Source: a virus
IMG/VR virus record: IMGVR_UViG_3300042516_003568
Coordinates: 1-21,098 of that record
Strand: one strand, 5' to 3'
DNA length: 21,098 nucleotides
This document shows positions 8,588 to 21,098 of the stretch, piece after piece; position 1 is the first letter of the stretch, and every line of letters begins with the position of its first letter. The notes below the pieces were generated by a model, which searched no databases, was not told where the DNA came from, and saw nothing but the letters and a program-made list of their open reading frames with translations. A program made the translations under genes and the position numbers.

Positions 8588-8956
8588 TTAATGAGCCCAC
8601 ACATCACCCCAATTTCCCGACAAAGCTCCTTTTGCATAATCAGTTGCTCTATTCTCAAAGAAATTAGTGTGTGTTGGTGCGTTAATCATTTCTTCTACCC
8701 AAGGTAGAGGATTCTTTTTCACTTTAAACACACCTTTGAGACCTAAAGAAATTAGGCGGCGGTCTGCAATATAACGAATATACTTTTTAACATCTTCTGA
8801 AGATAAACCTTCCATTTCATTTACGCCAAATGCTAGGTCAATAAACTTATCTTCTAGTTGTACCATTCTTTCAGCAATGGTATAGATTTTTCCTTTTAGT
8901 TCATCATTCCAAATTTCACGATTTTCTTCTATGTATGTCCTAAACAATTTAACCAT
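8588..8956 (-). CDS. nrdB: NrdB C-terminal part, separated from the N-terminal part by one in-frame amber codon
   Basis: This 122-residue frame starts at ATG 8956 (MVKLFRTYIEEN) and continues ribonucleotide reductase beta in the same frame as 8960-9574, separated only by TAG and one Ser codon. It holds the helical second half and the C-terminal tail, which in class Ia enzymes docks onto NrdA (WVEEMINAPTHTNFFENRATDYAKG..., ending GDVWAH). No ribosome-binding site precedes ATG 8956, so independent initiation would be poor. With TAG read as an amino acid, the full protein would be 328 residues. It may be a genuine mutation, readthrough, a two-piece protein or a sequencing error. Confidence 0.75.
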   Translation of the reverse strand: MVKLFRTYIEENREIWNDELKGKIYTIAERMVQLEDKFIDLAFGVNEMEGLSSEDVKKYIRYIADRRLISLGLKGVFKVKKNPLPWVEEMINAPTHTNFFENRATDYAKGALSGNWGDVWAH

Positions 8957-8959
8957 GGA

Positions 8960-9574
8960 CTATGCGTGTTGAGTTTCATCAACAATAGACCATGTGATAA
9001 TCTGACCCATGCCTTTCATTTTACCGTGACGAGCAAAGTTCAATAACATAATAAATGAACTGAATAATTGCATACCTTCGGTGAATGCTGAGAATACTGC
9101 AATGTGTGTTGCAGTATTTTCTTTAGTTGTATTCTTACTGGAGATTTCCATAACATAGTCATGTTTCTCTCTCATGGCCTCATACTCTAGGAACTCATTG
9201 TAAGTGGTTTCAGGTAGACCTAGTGTTTCGATCAGGTGTGAGTAGGCTGCAATGTGTAACGCCTCTCTGGCAGCGAATCCTGTGAGCATCATACGAATTT
9301 CAGGTTGTGGAAAATATGGTAGATAGTTCTTAACATAACCACCAGCCACATCAATATCACCTTGTGTGAAGAAACGGAAGATTTGTGTTAGAAATGTTTT
9401 TTCTTCCTTAGATAGTTTTTTCTTCCAATCCTTTACATCTTCGGACATAGGAACTTCAGTATGTAGCCAATGTGATTGCTCGTGTTTTAACCAGGCCTCA
9501 TAAGCCCAAGGATAATTAAAAGGTTTAAAATAGTTACGTTCTTCCGATAGATTTGATTCTATTTTTTTTATCAT
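8960..9574 (-). CDS. nrdB: NrdB N-terminal part, class Ia ribonucleotide reductase beta, ending at an amber codon
   Basis: This 204-residue frame carries all visible cofactor residues of the radical-generating subunit. By spacing against E. coli NrdB, the iron ligands are Asp73 (TQGDIDV), Glu104 and His107 (REALHIAAY), Glu166 (FTEGMQ), Glu200 and His203 (DETQHA). Tyr111 is in the radical-tyrosine place. The frame stops at TAG (8960-8962), two residues after His203, and the remaining NrdB sequence continues in frame. AAGGA precedes ATG 9574. It lies 18 bases after nrdA. Without the C-terminal half the NrdA-docking tail is missing, so the truncated piece alone should not be active. Confidence 0.85.
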   Translation of the reverse strand: MIKKIESNLSEERNYFKPFNYPWAYEAWLKHEQSHWLHTEVPMSEDVKDWKKKLSKEEKTFLTQIFRFFTQGDIDVAGGYVKNYLPYFPQPEIRMMLTGFAAREALHIAAYSHLIETLGLPETTYNEFLEYEAMREKHDYVMEISSKNTTKENTATHIAVFSAFTEGMQLFSSFIMLLNFARHGKMKGMGQIITWSIVDETQHA

Positions 9575-16478: not shown

Positions 16479-16958
16479 TTAAACCTTAGGTGTTTTTCTC
16501 CGAACCGACATAATGATTGGAGTTTTTTTCTTTTTTAAATTGACACCAGGTTCACCATCTTTACCTACACCGATGCCTGCGATTGCACCACCGCCTACAG
16601 CATTAGCGATTCCATCTTCATTAACAGCTTCCTCTGGTACACAATTAGGTACCATGCGATTGCCTTTCTTTTTCAAACCAACTGCTTTATATCCTGTCCA
16701 GCATGCTTCTGTTCGAACATTAATTGGTGCACCACGGCGTTCTGGATTGGGATCCTCTCTACGCTTTCTACGAGCAGCAGTTGCACGAGCTTCTTTACCA
16801 ATTGCGTGAGCTTTAGCCTGAGGCAAACACTTTGGTTTACCTTCACCTGGTTCTCTTGCGCAATCACCTTTGATATTGCCTTTGGTGTCCATACGAACCC
16901 ACTTCTGCTTAAACCACTTGCGTAAATCTTCACCAAGATATTGTTTAAAACTTTGCAT
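16479..16958 (-). CDS. small basic protein with capsid-targeting-like N-terminus
   Basis: This 159-residue protein starts MQSFKQYLGED, similar to its upstream neighbour's MKTFKQFVIEE and to the T4 internal-protein targeting sequence. L-G-E fits the T4 prohead protease cut pattern (L/I-x-E). The body is basic with cysteines (KWVRMDTKGNIKGDCAREPG, ARATAARRKRREDPNPERRG), then a Gly/Ala-rich stretch (AVGGGAIAGIGVG) and a Lys-rich end. ATG 16958 (TAATG overlap) is preferred to GTG 16970. A DNA-binding packaged protein is possible. I do not know an established function. Confidence 0.65.
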   Translation of the reverse strand: MQSFKQYLGEDLRKWFKQKWVRMDTKGNIKGDCAREPGEGKPKCLPQAKAHAIGKEARATAARRKRREDPNPERRGAPINVRTEACWTGYKAVGLKKKGNRMVPNCVPEEAVNEDGIANAVGGGAIAGIGVGKDGEPGVNLKKKKTPIIMSVRRKTPKV

Positions 16959-17623
16959 TAGCAATTCCACTTTCTTAGAGCTTTATTGATGCGGCTATCC
17001 GGATCATTTGCTGTCTTAGCAGATGTTAAACGTTTTTTCATTCCACCCATTCTTGCACAAAATGATTTTCTACGATTGGCTGCTTTAGAACCTGGTTTTA
17101 GTTTAGATGGCTTTGTTGTAACAGCCATTGATAATTTGGAACCTGGATTTTCTCTACGATATGAAGCAATACCTTTACGATTCAAACCGCCTTCTGGATC
17201 TTTTCCTGCAGCTCGTTGCCAAGCTGGTGATTTTTCATCAATTAGTTCAACTTCTTCTGGTATTTGTGCTGAATGAAATTGAGATTTATCTAAATGTTTA
17301 TTTTTATTTAAATGATGCAAAATAGCATCTTTTTCATCATCAGAATGCCGGTGCATAAATTTTACATCCAAAGGTCTATCATGCACAACAAATTTTTTTT
17401 CTTTACCTGTGGAACCATTTTTATTTTTGATGGTGCCGTGATATATGTGATAATCTCCATATCTATCTTCATAGTGTTTTGGAGTTTTTATTTTTTTACT
17501 GGAAACTTCAAATCCTTTATGTGAGGAATAAGGTTTAAATGTTGTAGTTTTTAAACTTCTCTCAACAGTTGAAGCTTCAGTTAAATTTAATTCTTCGATT
17601 ACAAATTGTTTAAATGTTTTCAT
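16958..17623 (-). CDS. DUF6321-like protein with capsid-targeting-like N-terminus
   Basis: This 221-residue protein opens with MKTFKQFVIEELN, close to the T4 internal-protein leader MKTYQEFIAEA. A middle domain (about 30-115) is Lys/His-rich (HYEDRYGDYHIYHGTIKNKN). The motif EEVELIDEKS (123-132) then links to a C-terminal domain like DUF6321 of T4-like phages: SPAWQRAAGKDPEGGLNRKG, RKSFCARMGGMKKRLTSAK, SRINKALRKWNC. The last domain is basic and may bind DNA. I infer a packaged, possibly processed, internal protein. It overlaps the next upstream gene by ATGA. Confidence 0.7.
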   Translation of the reverse strand: MKTFKQFVIEELNLTEASTVERSLKTTTFKPYSSHKGFEVSSKKIKTPKHYEDRYGDYHIYHGTIKNKNGSTGKEKKFVVHDRPLDVKFMHRHSDDEKDAILHHLNKNKHLDKSQFHSAQIPEEVELIDEKSPAWQRAAGKDPEGGLNRKGIASYRRENPGSKLSMAVTTKPSKLKPGSKAANRRKSFCARMGGMKKRLTSAKTANDPDSRINKALRKWNC

Positions 17624-18006
17624 ATTTTTTGTAATATTTCTGCAATATTGATATCTAAAGGGATATCTCCGGTTCGTATATTTTTTCCGTTAATACCATA
17701 AATCATATCCGGTAAAATATTCAAATACATTAAAAATGTTTTTAAAACATCATAATCTCTTTGATCAATTTTATAAAATAATATTCTCGCTGTTGCTTCT
17801 GGTCCAAAAACATTATTCAATAAAATAATGTGATTTAATATTAACCTTTCTTTTACGGATTTCGTAATTTTATATCTACGAAATAACCGTTTTAAGTATT
17901 TTATCCTTTTAATATCACTTTCAAACTCCGACATCATACACATTGGAGAATTGTAATATTTTACAGCATATATTAAAAAGTTTTCATCAGTCAAATTATC
18001 AAACAT
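17620..18006 (-). CDS. conserved T4-like phage protein of unknown function
   Basis: This 128-residue protein starts MFDNLTDENFLIYAVKYYNS and has a basic helix (IKRIKYLKRLFRRYKITKS), then LILNHIILLNNVFGPEATARILF and a C-terminus ending DIPLDINIAEILQKI. I recall this pattern from cyanophage and other T4-like genomes, where it stands near late genes, but no function is known to me. AGGA precedes ATG 18006. The hairpin terminator lies just 10 bases upstream of its start, so it may be translated from readthrough or from a promoter I do not see. Confidence 0.7.
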   Translation of the reverse strand: MFDNLTDENFLIYAVKYYNSPMCMMSEFESDIKRIKYLKRLFRRYKITKSVKERLILNHIILLNNVFGPEATARILFYKIDQRDYDVLKTFLMYLNILPDMIYGINGKNIRTGDIPLDINIAEILQKI

Positions 18007-18015
18007 TATTAATCC

Positions 18016-18040
18016 TAAAAATGGGAGCCGAAGCTCCCAT
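18016..18040 (-). terminator. C(UUCG)G hairpin terminator
   Basis: On the minus strand, an 8-base perfect stem ATGGGAGC / GCTCCCAT closes a TTCG loop (18040-18021) and is followed by a T-run (18021-18017). The C(UUCG)G tetraloop is the very stable form first noted in T4 transcripts. It follows the stop of the Ig-like gene by about 20 bases and precedes the next start by about 10. Confidence 0.88.
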
Positions 18041-18058
18041 ATTCAATAATATAAACTA

Positions 18059-18739
18059 TTAAGAAGCAGTAACAATCAATATAACTGGTGTGGATGTTGT
18101 TGAAGCACCCGTACCTGTTGCGGAAACAGTAACTCGGTAGTAGTTGCTGTTAGCATCAGTAAATGTTGGAGTAACTGTCAATGTTGCGGTTGTTCCACCA
18201 GAATATGTTGTATTTGCTGGTGTACCATTCGAAACGTTGACATAAGAACCGCCAAGTGTTGCAGAACGCTGCCATTGATAGGTTAATGGAGCTGCAGTAT
18301 TTCCTGATGTAATCGAAGCTGCAACTGTAAACGATGCTACTCTTCCACCACCATATTGAACAAGGTTTGCAGAAGGATTAGTACCAATCGTGATGATGGC
18401 ATCTTGATAAGTAGTATCTTCATTGTCGCCATTGAAGTTTGAGATAGATACCAAAACTTCTTCTTGTACACGGCCTGCACGACCACCAGATCCAGTTGTT
18501 CTTAAAACCCAACCAGAATTTTTTCCGCTAACTGAGGCTTCGTTGGCATCAACAGCAAAAAGGCCAATTGTTTCTCCAACAGTATAAACATCAGCCGTAG
18601 TATTTGCATACAAAAGTGCTACGTTATCCGCTGTTGGTGCAGAATAGTTAGCTTTTACATCTGCGGCATTCACAATCGTTGAATTTACAGCCCAATATGG
18701 TGCATTGGCTGCGTTATCGTTATTTCCCCATGAGGACAT
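18059..18739 (-). CDS. Ig-like domain protein, probable virion surface or decoration protein
   Basis: This 226-residue protein is rich in Ala, Thr, Ser, Asn and Gly, like phage structural proteins. The N-terminal part (1 to about 118) resembles a T4-like structural family I recall (SSWGNNDNAANAPYWAVNS, GGRAGRVQEEVLVSISN). The C-terminal 105 residues look like a bacterial Ig-like fold (LTYQWQRSATLGGSYVNVSN, ATLTVTPTFTDANSNYYRVTV). Such domains decorate heads and tails and bind cell surfaces weakly. AAGGAG sits 6 bases before ATG 18739. It has its own late promoter box and terminator, consistent with high, separate expression. Head versus tail place is unknown. Confidence 0.72.
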   Translation of the reverse strand: MSSWGNNDNAANAPYWAVNSTIVNAADVKANYSAPTADNVALLYANTTADVYTVGETIGLFAVDANEASVSGKNSGWVLRTTGSGGRAGRVQEEVLVSISNFNGDNEDTTYQDAIITIGTNPSANLVQYGGGRVASFTVAASITSGNTAAPLTYQWQRSATLGGSYVNVSNGTPANTTYSGGTTATLTVTPTFTDANSNYYRVTVSATGTGASTTSTPVILIVTAS

Positions 18740-18769
18740 CTTCTTCTCCTTAAATTGAAGGTTGTTAGT

Positions 18770-18777
18770 TATTTATC
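18770..18777 (-). promoter_or_regulatory. T4-like late promoter box
   Basis: The minus strand reads GATAAATA (18777-18770), 7 of 8 bases of the T4 late consensus TATAAATA. It lies in the 40-base gap between two genes and about 30 bases before the AAGGAG and ATG of the Ig-like gene. There is no -35, as expected for a late promoter read by a gp55-type sigma factor. Confidence 0.6.
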
Positions 18778-18779
18778 TC

Positions 18780-20261
18780 TTATGTTTTTTTGTTTTGGTC
18801 TAATGGACCAGGTTTTCTCATCAAAGGATCAATTTCCAGAGTATCTCTGTCCTGACCAGTTAAAGTTTTACCTCCAGTTAAAACTGCTGCGGCTTGTGGT
18901 TCATTATCACCTGTGGCCATCTTTTTATCAGCTCTTGTCATTGATGGTTTTTTACCATAGGGTGTTTCGAGTTTATCTGTTTTTTCTTTGTCATACATGA
19001 TACCACCACCAGATTGACCATCAACACCTTCTTTTACGCCTTTATTTTTATATAATGACTTAATCATACGAGCTGATTTAGACATTTCTTTTCTTTTATT
19101 GTATTTCTCATCGGATGGCAAATCAACAATTTCCATACCAGTTGTTTGTGTGGCAGCATATGAATCTTGCCAAGTATCTTCTTTATTAAGCAGTCTGGAT
19201 ATAAATGAAGCCTTTTTAGAGGGTTTCTTGGCCAGAGTTTTTGGTTTAGGATTATAACTTGGTGTGCCCAAATTTACTTTAACATTTCTTTTATTTTTGA
19301 TTGAATCTAAAGTAGCTTGAGATACATGACCTTGAACTCCTGTGGAAAAAACTTCCGACACATCTTCAGTTTCTTCAGATGTTGGCTTATAACCAGCTAA
19401 ACGGTCTAAAGCTCTATTCCAACTTTTGCTGTGAGATTTAATTTTTTTATTGTGATCTTTTCTACTCATACCTGGTTTTTTCTCAGGTACAACTGGTTGT
19501 TGTTTTAACCAAGAAAATACTGTGGACTTTTTGAGTTCATCAATCTGTTCTGTTTCTTCTTTATTCAATTGTTTTTCTAAACGGTCAATAGAACCTTTCA
19601 TATCTTCTTTACCAGCGGCATGGCGAGCTTTCATTTCTTTTTCAGCATCATCATGCTTCTTTGCACGTTCTGCTGCAGATGCACGAAACTTATCTAACGC
19701 TGTCATCTTTGGTTTTTTTTCTTCAGAAAATGACCGTTTAGCCATAATTTTAGCTAACTTGCTCATTGCCTTTTTGCGAGGTTCAGCACGCTTTGGATCT
19801 TTACTGGTTGTTTTCAGAACATAAGATGCCAATGTTTCAGGTGCCAACTCATCGATTTGTTCCGATTCTTCTTTTAAACCTAAGCGGCGAGCTTCACCTT
19901 CCATAAAAGAATGTAAACTTTCAAATTCACTAAACGATTTAGCAATTTTAACTTGATACCATTCTTCTACTTCTCCACCTTTATCGATGTAATCTAAAAT
20001 TTCTTCACATGCATATTTGATAAAATGTAATTGTGCCTGCACCATTTCTTCTTTTTCAGAAGTATCATTTTCTTTAATTTCTTCTTCAGTAAATTGCCTA
20101 TCATTTTGGTGGTCTACTTTCCATTTTGCAAATTCAGCAGATTTTGCATGAGAAATTTTTGTATCCGTTGTAACAAATTTAGGATTAATTCCTCTAGAAT
20201 TTAAATATACATTTAGAAGCTGTTGTTCGCTGGCTTCGTTGATTTTATTATTTTCTATCAT
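18780..20261 (-). CDS. large charged mosaic protein with repeated EQIDEL motif
   Basis: This 493-residue protein has no catalytic motif I can see. After a polar N-terminus, a helical block (66-130, EEWYQVKIAKSFSEFESLHS) resembles a module I recall from other T4-like phages. The motif EEsEQIDEL with a following S/T-L/V-x-S-Y/W pattern occurs twice (131-150 and 235-254). Basic helical segments alternate with these (RKKAMSKLAKIMAKR, KFRASAAERAKKHDDAEKE). The C-terminus (GKKPSMTRADKKMATGDNEP, AAAVLTGGKTLTGQDRDTLE, DPLMRKPG) is also familiar from aquatic T4-like phages. A packaged or scaffold-related role is inferred only. It overlaps the upstream gene by ATGA. Confidence 0.7.
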   Translation of the reverse strand: MIENNKINEASEQQLLNVYLNSRGINPKFVTTDTKISHAKSAEFAKWKVDHQNDRQFTEEEIKENDTSEKEEMVQAQLHFIKYACEEILDYIDKGGEVEEWYQVKIAKSFSEFESLHSFMEGEARRLGLKEESEQIDELAPETLASYVLKTTSKDPKRAEPRKKAMSKLAKIMAKRSFSEEKKPKMTALDKFRASAAERAKKHDDAEKEMKARHAAGKEDMKGSIDRLEKQLNKEETEQIDELKKSTVFSWLKQQPVVPEKKPGMSRKDHNKKIKSHSKSWNRALDRLAGYKPTSEETEDVSEVFSTGVQGHVSQATLDSIKNKRNVKVNLGTPSYNPKPKTLAKKPSKKASFISRLLNKEDTWQDSYAATQTTGMEIVDLPSDEKYNKRKEMSKSARMIKSLYKNKGVKEGVDGQSGGGIMYDKEKTDKLETPYGKKPSMTRADKKMATGDNEPQAAAVLTGGKTLTGQDRDTLEIDPLMRKPGPLDQNKKT

Positions 20262-21098
20262 TTTTTGCTCTCGGATGTTCCTAGTTTGCCCATCATTTCC
20301 GTTTTAAGTTTTTTCATTGCAGCTTGGGCCAAATTTCTTGCTCTGGACATTGGTGTATGAATTGCACCAGATTTATCCTTGACATTACTTGGAATCTTTG
20401 TGTAAGGTCTCTCAAATGGAGGTGCATCATCCGTTTCTGGACGTTTACCTTCTTTAAGTTTGAGTGATTGCTTGCTTTCATGTGATTTTCTTGCTGGTGT
20501 ATCATCTGGTTGTATTGCTATAGGTGTGGCATCTTTTGGTTGATGTTCACCTTCTTTATCCAAAGGCCTAACTCTTATTTTATAAGATTTAAAATCATTT
20601 GATTTACCACCAGGCATACGACCAATTAATGTGTCGGTTGTTATGGCAGAAGAATCTTCAGCAGCTTCTTTCATTGCTTGTTTTGTAGCGGTTGCATACA
20701 TTACATCTTTGGCACGAGCACCATAACGTGATTTAAAACCTGCCAAACCTTTTTTCATGCCTTTGACGATACGTTCTCTTTCTTTCATGTCGTCATCAGT
20801 CATTTTCTTTTCATCTAATTCATCCAATTCTTCAACTTCTTCATTTGCAGTTTTCCAACCACCACCCATTGCTTTGTATTTCTTTGAAGCCCAACCATTT
20901 GCATATGCGGAAGGATATACATCAAATTTAGCTTTAGCTTGTGCCTTTGCTTGAGCCCACTTCTCTGGACTTGTTGGCACATTTTTTTCATCTAACGATT
21001 CAACTTCTTCTTTTTTAACATTAGCCATAGTTTGTTTAACAAATGCTTTTCTTGGATTGTGAACAGGATCATTGAGTCCATACTTGTCATCAACCGTT
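20258..21098 (-). CDS. large charged mosaic protein, 5'-truncated by window edge
   Basis: An ATG exists at 21028, but it has no ribosome-binding site. The same frame stays open to the right edge (TVDDKYGLNDPVHNPRKAF...), so the true start is probably outside. The visible 279 residues contain, counting from the ATG, SLDEK (11-15), a module with KWAQAKAQAKAKFDVYPSAY and GWASKKYKAMGGGW (24-58), EEVEELDELDEKK (63-75), and a basic helical module (ERERIVKGMKKGLAGFKSRY, ARAKDVMYATATKQAMK). A Pro/Lys-rich C-terminus follows. No function is known to me. The acidic LDE motifs match those in the two DUF-like proteins downstream. Confidence 0.65.
   Translation of the reverse strand, partial: TVDDKYGLNDPVHNPRKAFVKQTMANVKKEEVESLDEKNVPTSPEKWAQAKAQAKAKFDVYPSAYANGWASKKYKAMGGGWKTANEEVEELDELDEKKMTDDDMKERERIVKGMKKGLAGFKSRYGARAKDVMYATATKQAMKEAAEDSSAITTDTLIGRMPGGKSNDFKSYKIRVRPLDKEGEHQPKDATPIAIQPDDTPARKSHESKQSLKLKEGKRPETDDAPPFERPYTKIPSNVKDKSGAIHTPMSRARNLAQAAMKKLKTEMMGKLGTSESKK

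Follow-up and report, generated by a model that had tools for sequence, protein, structure and literature searches.

Shuffled basic modules and putative head protease sites in candidate internal head proteins of a T4-type virus

Introduction

Why should neighbouring large proteins of one virus carry the same short acidic motif between otherwise unrelated modules? The question is raised by positions 1 to 21,098 of IMG/VR record IMGVR_UViG_3300042516_003568 (hereafter the window, 21,098 nucleotides), in which a first-pass annotation noticed strings fitting the [L/I]-x-E cut pattern of the T4 prohead protease and proposed modular polyproteins that are cut into several packaged peptides. The strings lie in three minus-strand open reading frames (ORFs) encoding the proteins named here P1, P2 and P3, of which P1 runs off the window; a fourth modular minus-strand protein is named P4 (Table 1). 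From the sequence comparisons described below, P1-P4 of this T4-type virus are probably multi-module proteins of the head interior, bearing a capsid-targeting sequence (CTS) and cut by the head protease gp21 into basic cargo peptides. A slash marks a putative cut point or, in modules without the motif, the start of the module.

Results

All five annotated strings were confirmed in frame. EQIDEL (19862-19845 and 19550-19533), EELDELDEKK (20833-20804) and SLDEK (20998-20984) are present as described, and one coordinate was mended, with EEVELIDE at 17257-17234 and its following K at 17233-17231. Plain [LI]xE occurs 14 times in P1-P4 versus 9.3 in composition shuffles (p = 0.07), and for the longer form EE-x(1-3)-[LI]-[DE]-E the count is 6 versus 0.03 expected, a value reached by 0/5000 shuffles. 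Positional conservation in relatives is stronger evidence than such counts.

Module profiles were built and searched against the ORFs of about 250 loci. The stretches between motifs recur in other proteins and in other orders, with EE-x-[LI]-[DE]-E at the joints; the comparison of module order proposed in the first-pass annotation thus shows shuffled modules with the motifs kept at their borders. The clearest border is that of the DUF5872-like module, for which 81 distinct upstream contexts were found. Position -1 (cut position P1) is Glu in 81/81 and never Asp, position -3 (cut position P3) is Leu or Ile in 78/81, and position -2 (cut position P2) is free (E 32, D 30, N 6, S 3). At -2 Asp is freely exchanged for Glu, but at -1 it never is, a pattern expected from an L/I-x-E protease rule and not from a simple acidic linker. 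The [LI]xE motif ends exactly at the module border in relatives for the DUF5872-like (78/81), LKKSTV (26/26) and LAPETL (7/7) modules, in about 86/112 cases for DUF6321 (offset 0 or -1) and in 56/88 for KWF (at -1), compared with a mean of 0.003-0.015 per position elsewhere. Counted by independent upstream contexts, the motif lies within 3 residues (<=3) of the module start in 21/22, 14/14, 18/23 and 14/18.

The border DNA has a mean identity of 0.92, versus 0.81-0.92 for most module interiors. Its first two codons are GAAGAA in all 56 contexts, among which 19 distinct 24-mers occur. Recombination at this patch of border DNA may be how the modules are shuffled.

A similar layout is found in Caulobacter phage Cr30, in which AGS80949 (682 amino acids) is encoded between the cytidylyltransferase and DUF7207 genes. 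It contains four ISKxTLGxYI-type modules, the first starting at residue 9, each directly after ILAE, NLEE, ELDE or ALDE, and two KYFDxDEIADLK modules, each after SENLNE.

Some of the N-termini also resemble those of packaged T4 proteins. P3 begins MKTFKQFVIEELNLTE/A, and IPI in the T4 record begins MKTFKEFTSTTTPVSTITE/A; the T4 CTS pattern, an N-terminal propeptide of about 10-19 amino acids, fits both P3 and P4 (MQSFKQYLGE/D). P2 (MIENNKINE/A) and full-length P1 homologues (..IIGE/A) have the cut site and lack the FKxF pattern; one such homologue of 581 amino acids (locus L228, 1462-3204) begins MFTKNNVSQSLVDAVKNIIGE/A. Several modules also occur alone, directly behind a CTS-like N-terminus (MKTFKQYLEE/KSPAWQ, MKTFQEFINE/DLRKWF, MKSFKNFIAE/RCWPGY), and a DUF5872-like module follows a short one (MKSFKEFREEHLEE/KNVPTS). 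The DUF6321 protein of P-SSM7 begins MKTYSQFIEE/G. A loose CTS pattern was matched by 138/322 module-bearing ORFs versus 46/1374 other ORFs, a comparison among related sequences, so that its p-value should not be read literally. When the last CTS Glu of T4 is changed to Asp, processing is blocked and targeting is left intact (PMC9026906).

The motif was further compared between phages with different heads. A gp21 relative (Peptidase S77, PF03420) was found in 9/15 relatives, including an 89.6-kb contig with a P2 match of up to 94% identity over the best segment. The head cluster of this contig encodes a gp23 with VLNE/TA near the T4 cut position, a scaffold beginning MGKFNLSE/AA, and a gp21 with ITE and LAE near its own N-terminus. 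Phages that have an SU10-type portal and a capsid unrelated to that of T4 (phrog_1216, phrog_371) likewise carry DUF6321 and KWF modules, which there start MAK/TAAWQ, MA/SPAWQ or MANG/LRKWV, without CTS and without motif. With the motif scored as [LIV]xE within 3 residues, it accompanies DUF6321 in 69/73 T4-type contexts versus 0/19 non-T4-capsid contexts, and KWF in 53/64 versus 0/6. Neither gp21 nor gp23 was found in 11 contigs, themselves fragments, whose modules have no motif. The motif is therefore a property of the T4-type head context and not of the module.

Published mass spectrometry (MS) places homologues in virions of two isolates. Purified S-CREM2 virions yielded 7 unique peptides of gp160, a coverage of 13.1% (PMC10665884). 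This protein comprises KWF, CWxGY and DUF5872-like modules with borders NLEE/KKNCW and EISE/GKKDAC, and is encoded at the same locus, after the DUF7207-like gp159 and before UvrC, primase and nrdA. S-SZBM1_139, detected in virions by MS (PMC9146016), carries CWxGY and is encoded at the same locus as the modular genes of the window; SSZBM1_136, a virion structural protein at the position matching the phrog_613 head protein, was detected as well. These detections concern the homologues in S-CREM2 and S-SZBM1 and do not place the proteins inside the head. The first-pass annotation had named absence from virions as evidence against its proposal; homologous modular proteins are present there in both isolates.

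CTS-like propeptides were also observed on other proteins. Cyanophage cytidylyltransferases begin MKNFSSFLTE/A, MRFRQFIIE/A or MKKFSAFLTE/A (loci L115, 10609-11469; L254, 14390-15478; L258, 2558-3718), and those neighbouring the modular genes (MKNFSSFLTE/A, MRFRQFIIE/A) were detected in the virions of S-CREM2 and S-SZBM1; such a propeptide would explain the presence of the enzyme in the virion. In the fetched loci, DUF6267-resembling proteins (MLSFKSFLTEE...) and a HAD-like phosphatase (MKSFKDYLIEESKGSLHVFDVDDTLFHT) have CTS-like N-termini and are possible further packaged enzymes. In Cr30 AGS80945 (locus L256, 6389-6709), MKTFKQFFNESLTE/S stands ahead of a PARP-like domain whose match is sub-threshold (E = 0.0018); the protein recalls T4 Alt, a packaged ADP-ribosyltransferase.

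The fragment belongs to a T4-type virus, with NrdA, a T4-type primase and a lysis gene set on the minus strand; upstream of these genes lie P4, P3, a DUF7207 protein, a head protein, P2 and the end of P1. The Pfam match of the DUF5872-like module is sub-threshold (E = 0.01, 16.8 bits versus a cut-off of 27.5). In many PHROG families without an assigned function, it is the interior or the end that P3 and P4 match. Pfam and PHROGs gave no enzymatic or peptidase domain above cut-off in P1-P4, and tblastn with P2 as query against phage isolates gave no matches. AlphaFold models of P2 and P3 are of low confidence (mean predicted local distance difference test scores of 49 and 53), mostly helical or disordered, and played no part in setting module borders.

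Table 1. Features of the modular genes and their neighbours in the window
Feature	Position	Strand	Remark
Protein P1	20258..21097	-	C-terminal 279 amino acids of modular protein; start outside window
SLDE/ putative gp21 site	20987..20995	-	precedes DUF5872-like module
DUF5872-like module (KNVPTSPEKW...GGGWK)	20852..20986	-	net charge +7
ELDE/LDE/ tandem putative gp21 sites	20810..20827	-	
KGLxxFKxRYG module	20669..20812	-	net charge +7
Protein P2, modular, 493 amino acids	18780..20261	-	N-terminus MIENNKINE/AS
INE/ putative N-terminal propeptide cut site of P2	20235..20243	-	homologue MTENKPITE/A
EQIDE/ putative gp21 site	19848..19856	-	before LAPETLASY module
LAPETLASY module	19728..19847	-	net charge +8
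TALDKFRxxA module	19554..19709	-	net charge +2
EQIDE/ putative gp21 site	19536..19544	-	before LKKSTVFSWL module
LKKSTVFSWL module	19374..19535	-	net charge +10
Head protein neighbour	18059..18739	-	phrog_613, E = 1.8e-13
DUF7207 neighbour	17620..18006	-	synteny marker; PF23837, E = 5e-37
Protein P3, 221 amino acids	16958..17623	-	putative capsid-targeting N-terminus and C-terminal DUF6321
MKTFKQFVIEELNLTE/ putative capsid-targeting propeptide of P3	17576..17623	-	compare T4 IPI MKTFKEFTSTTTPVSTITE/A
LIDE/ putative gp21 site	17234..17242	-	precedes DUF6321
DUF6321 module	16961..17230	-	net charge +18; PF19846, E = 1.3e-18
Protein P4, modular	16479..16958	-	probable start ATG at 16958, overlapping P3 stop
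MQSFKQYLGE/D putative capsid-targeting propeptide of P4	16929..16958	-	
KWF module (LRKWF...GAPINV)	16716..16925	-	net charge +12
CWxGY module	16629..16706	-	net charge +3

A few observations stand apart from the modular proteins' borders. The nrdB gene (8588-9574, minus strand) has one in-frame stop (DETQHA*SMVKLF) with both halves in the same frame, either real or a sequence error. DUF7207, encoded in the window on the minus strand, occurs in cyanophages as well as in phages of Caulobacter, Rhizobium and Stenotrophomonas, and adjoins modular genes in several regions read. Stretches resembling an EF-hand or dockerin (HKIDANKNNKVDAHDF) are present in full-length P1 homologues (L228, 1462-3204), and some relatives have them in tandem.

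Discussion

How might such proteins work? The N-terminal capsid-targeting propeptide would draw the precursor into the prohead core, where a gp21-type protease would cut after [L/I]-x-E, both at the end of the propeptide and at the acidic linkers between modules. Small basic modules of about 26-90 amino acids, mostly of net charge +7 to +18, would thereby be freed, remain beside the packaged DNA and probably pass into the host together with it, while the short acidic linker peptides would be lost from the head. Packaging of the modular proteins is likely, and their predicted internal cutting is probable. Beyond the published specificity of T4 gp21 and function of the T4 CTS, we infer cutting by this virus's own gp21, retention of the modules, and a role for them in DNA binding or host take-over.

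Several results weigh against this reading. Plain [LI]xE is not enriched in P1-P4 relative to composition shuffles, so the bare protease pattern proves nothing and it is the long form and its position that carry weight. The border rule is weak for CWxGY (12/60). Because the contigs are related, the context counts cannot be treated as independent. Among isolates of marine cyanophages (S-CAM9, ACG-2014f, S-8S53, S-BM3, S-SM1) only 8/21 borders are strict, the relaxed form [LIVM]xE is found at 11/21, and S-SM1 keeps the motif at 1/4; the cyanophage DUF6321 has an internal GGLNE/KGR that would be cut unless folded away. No gp21 was found on the 21-kb fragment, which stops short of the head cluster. 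The MS papers give peptides and not termini, so that detection is no proof that cut modules are retained, and the scaffold and protease (gp22, gp21) were also detected in S-CREM2 virions. The first-pass proposal of cleavable polyproteins is partly supported and, with its cutting as a prediction, has the best support among the explanations considered. It is strengthened by border conservation, shuffling, virion homologues, CTS-like N-termini, gp21 in close relatives and the absence of the motif from the same modules in phages with another capsid, and weakened by the lack of enrichment of the plain motif and by the few borders that keep it in some homologues; its [L/I]-x-E sites fit the gp21 rule in sequence.

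The less consistent cyanophage borders would suit an arrangement in which cutting is confined to the N-terminal propeptide, with the acidic motifs inside the chain left whole as flexible linkers of intact, packaged multi-domain cargo; the T4 internal proteins and most SPN3US substrates indeed lose the propeptide only (PMC9026906; PMC10052503). We consider this unlikely, as the internal borders in relatives of the window proteins follow the same P3/P1 cut-position rule as the CTS ends, and a linker would tolerate at -1 of the DUF5872-like border the Asp that is seen only at -2. A sacrificial fate, in which P1-P4 serve as core or scaffold in the manner of gp22, gp67 and gp68, are cut up and expelled, and leave no role for their modules in the mature head, seems improbable. 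T4 core proteins do carry numerous [LI]xE sites and end up as fragments (PMC9026906), and since gp22 and gp21 are also detected in S-CREM2 virions, detection by MS alone does not exclude such a fate; the modules, however, are conserved, basic and shuffled, whereas T4 gp22 and gp67 are acidic, and they also occur as single CTS-tagged proteins, which is the layout of the T4 internal proteins.

The motif might also be mainly a patch of DNA homology, or a neutral acidic linker, for in-frame recombination of modules, with its likeness to a gp21 site incidental. Identity along the border DNA is somewhat higher than within most modules and its GAAGAA is constant, as this would predict, but the diversity of 24-mers speaks against it. 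Unlike sequences (HLEE, IISE, LTE, SENLNE) act as border or propeptide end, the motif also closes the propeptides of proteins with a single module, which require no joint, and it is absent from non-T4 phages with the same modules. We therefore regard this explanation as very improbable.

With a chance somewhat better than even, the head protease of a widespread lineage of T4-type viruses serves to process polyproteins: exchangeable basic modules behind one capsid-targeting signal would be cut apart in the prohead and delivered to the host as a cocktail that changes by recombination at the cut sites. If true, large hypothetical families (DUF6321, DUF5872-like, PHROGs 727, 3477 and 4689, cyanophage cluster T4-GC119), which are known from T4-type phages of the sea and of fresh water by the hundreds, would gain an in-head location and a processing route, and a sequence rule would be at hand for telling which of a phage's proteins are packaged and injected. 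The further cargo that T4-type phages deliver along with their DNA would become testable in cultured S-CREM2, S-SZBM1 and Caulobacter Cr30. The first-pass annotation knew of no description of this arrangement, and a literature search on DUF6321, DUF5872 and DUF7207, on prohead protease with polyprotein, and on cyanophage CTS likewise found none in open-access papers, though a subscription paper could exist.

Among known systems, T4 IPI, IPII and IPIII are alike in having the same type of propeptide (MKTFKEF.. or MKTFKQF..) ending [LI]xE/A, in being small proteins that vary between phages, and in a gp21 relative in the same phages; each of them is one mature unit, whereas the chains described here comprise several unrelated modules separated by putative cut sites. 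The T4 core proteins gp22, gp67 and gp68 likewise have several [LI]xE sites per chain and are cut to internal peptides, but they are scaffold, in contrast to conserved basic modules shuffled between genes. Giant phages with a gp245-type protease (SPN3US, phiKZ) also process several internal head proteins at a short x-x-Glu motif; that of SPN3US is A-x-E, and mostly long propeptides are removed, not a shuffled multi-module chain cut apart. The polyvalent proteins of phages and plasmids (P1 DarA, DdrB; PMC5512222) are similarly multi-domain virion cargo with shuffled domains and proposed processing, there by a built-in zincin-like metallopeptidase and here by the head protease in trans acting on tiny basic modules; by Pfam and PHROGs, P1-P4 do not show the domains of unlike activity, often with a zincin peptidase, that define polyvalent proteins. 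The arrangement is a variation on the theme of T4 internal proteins and gp21, not a new kind of system.

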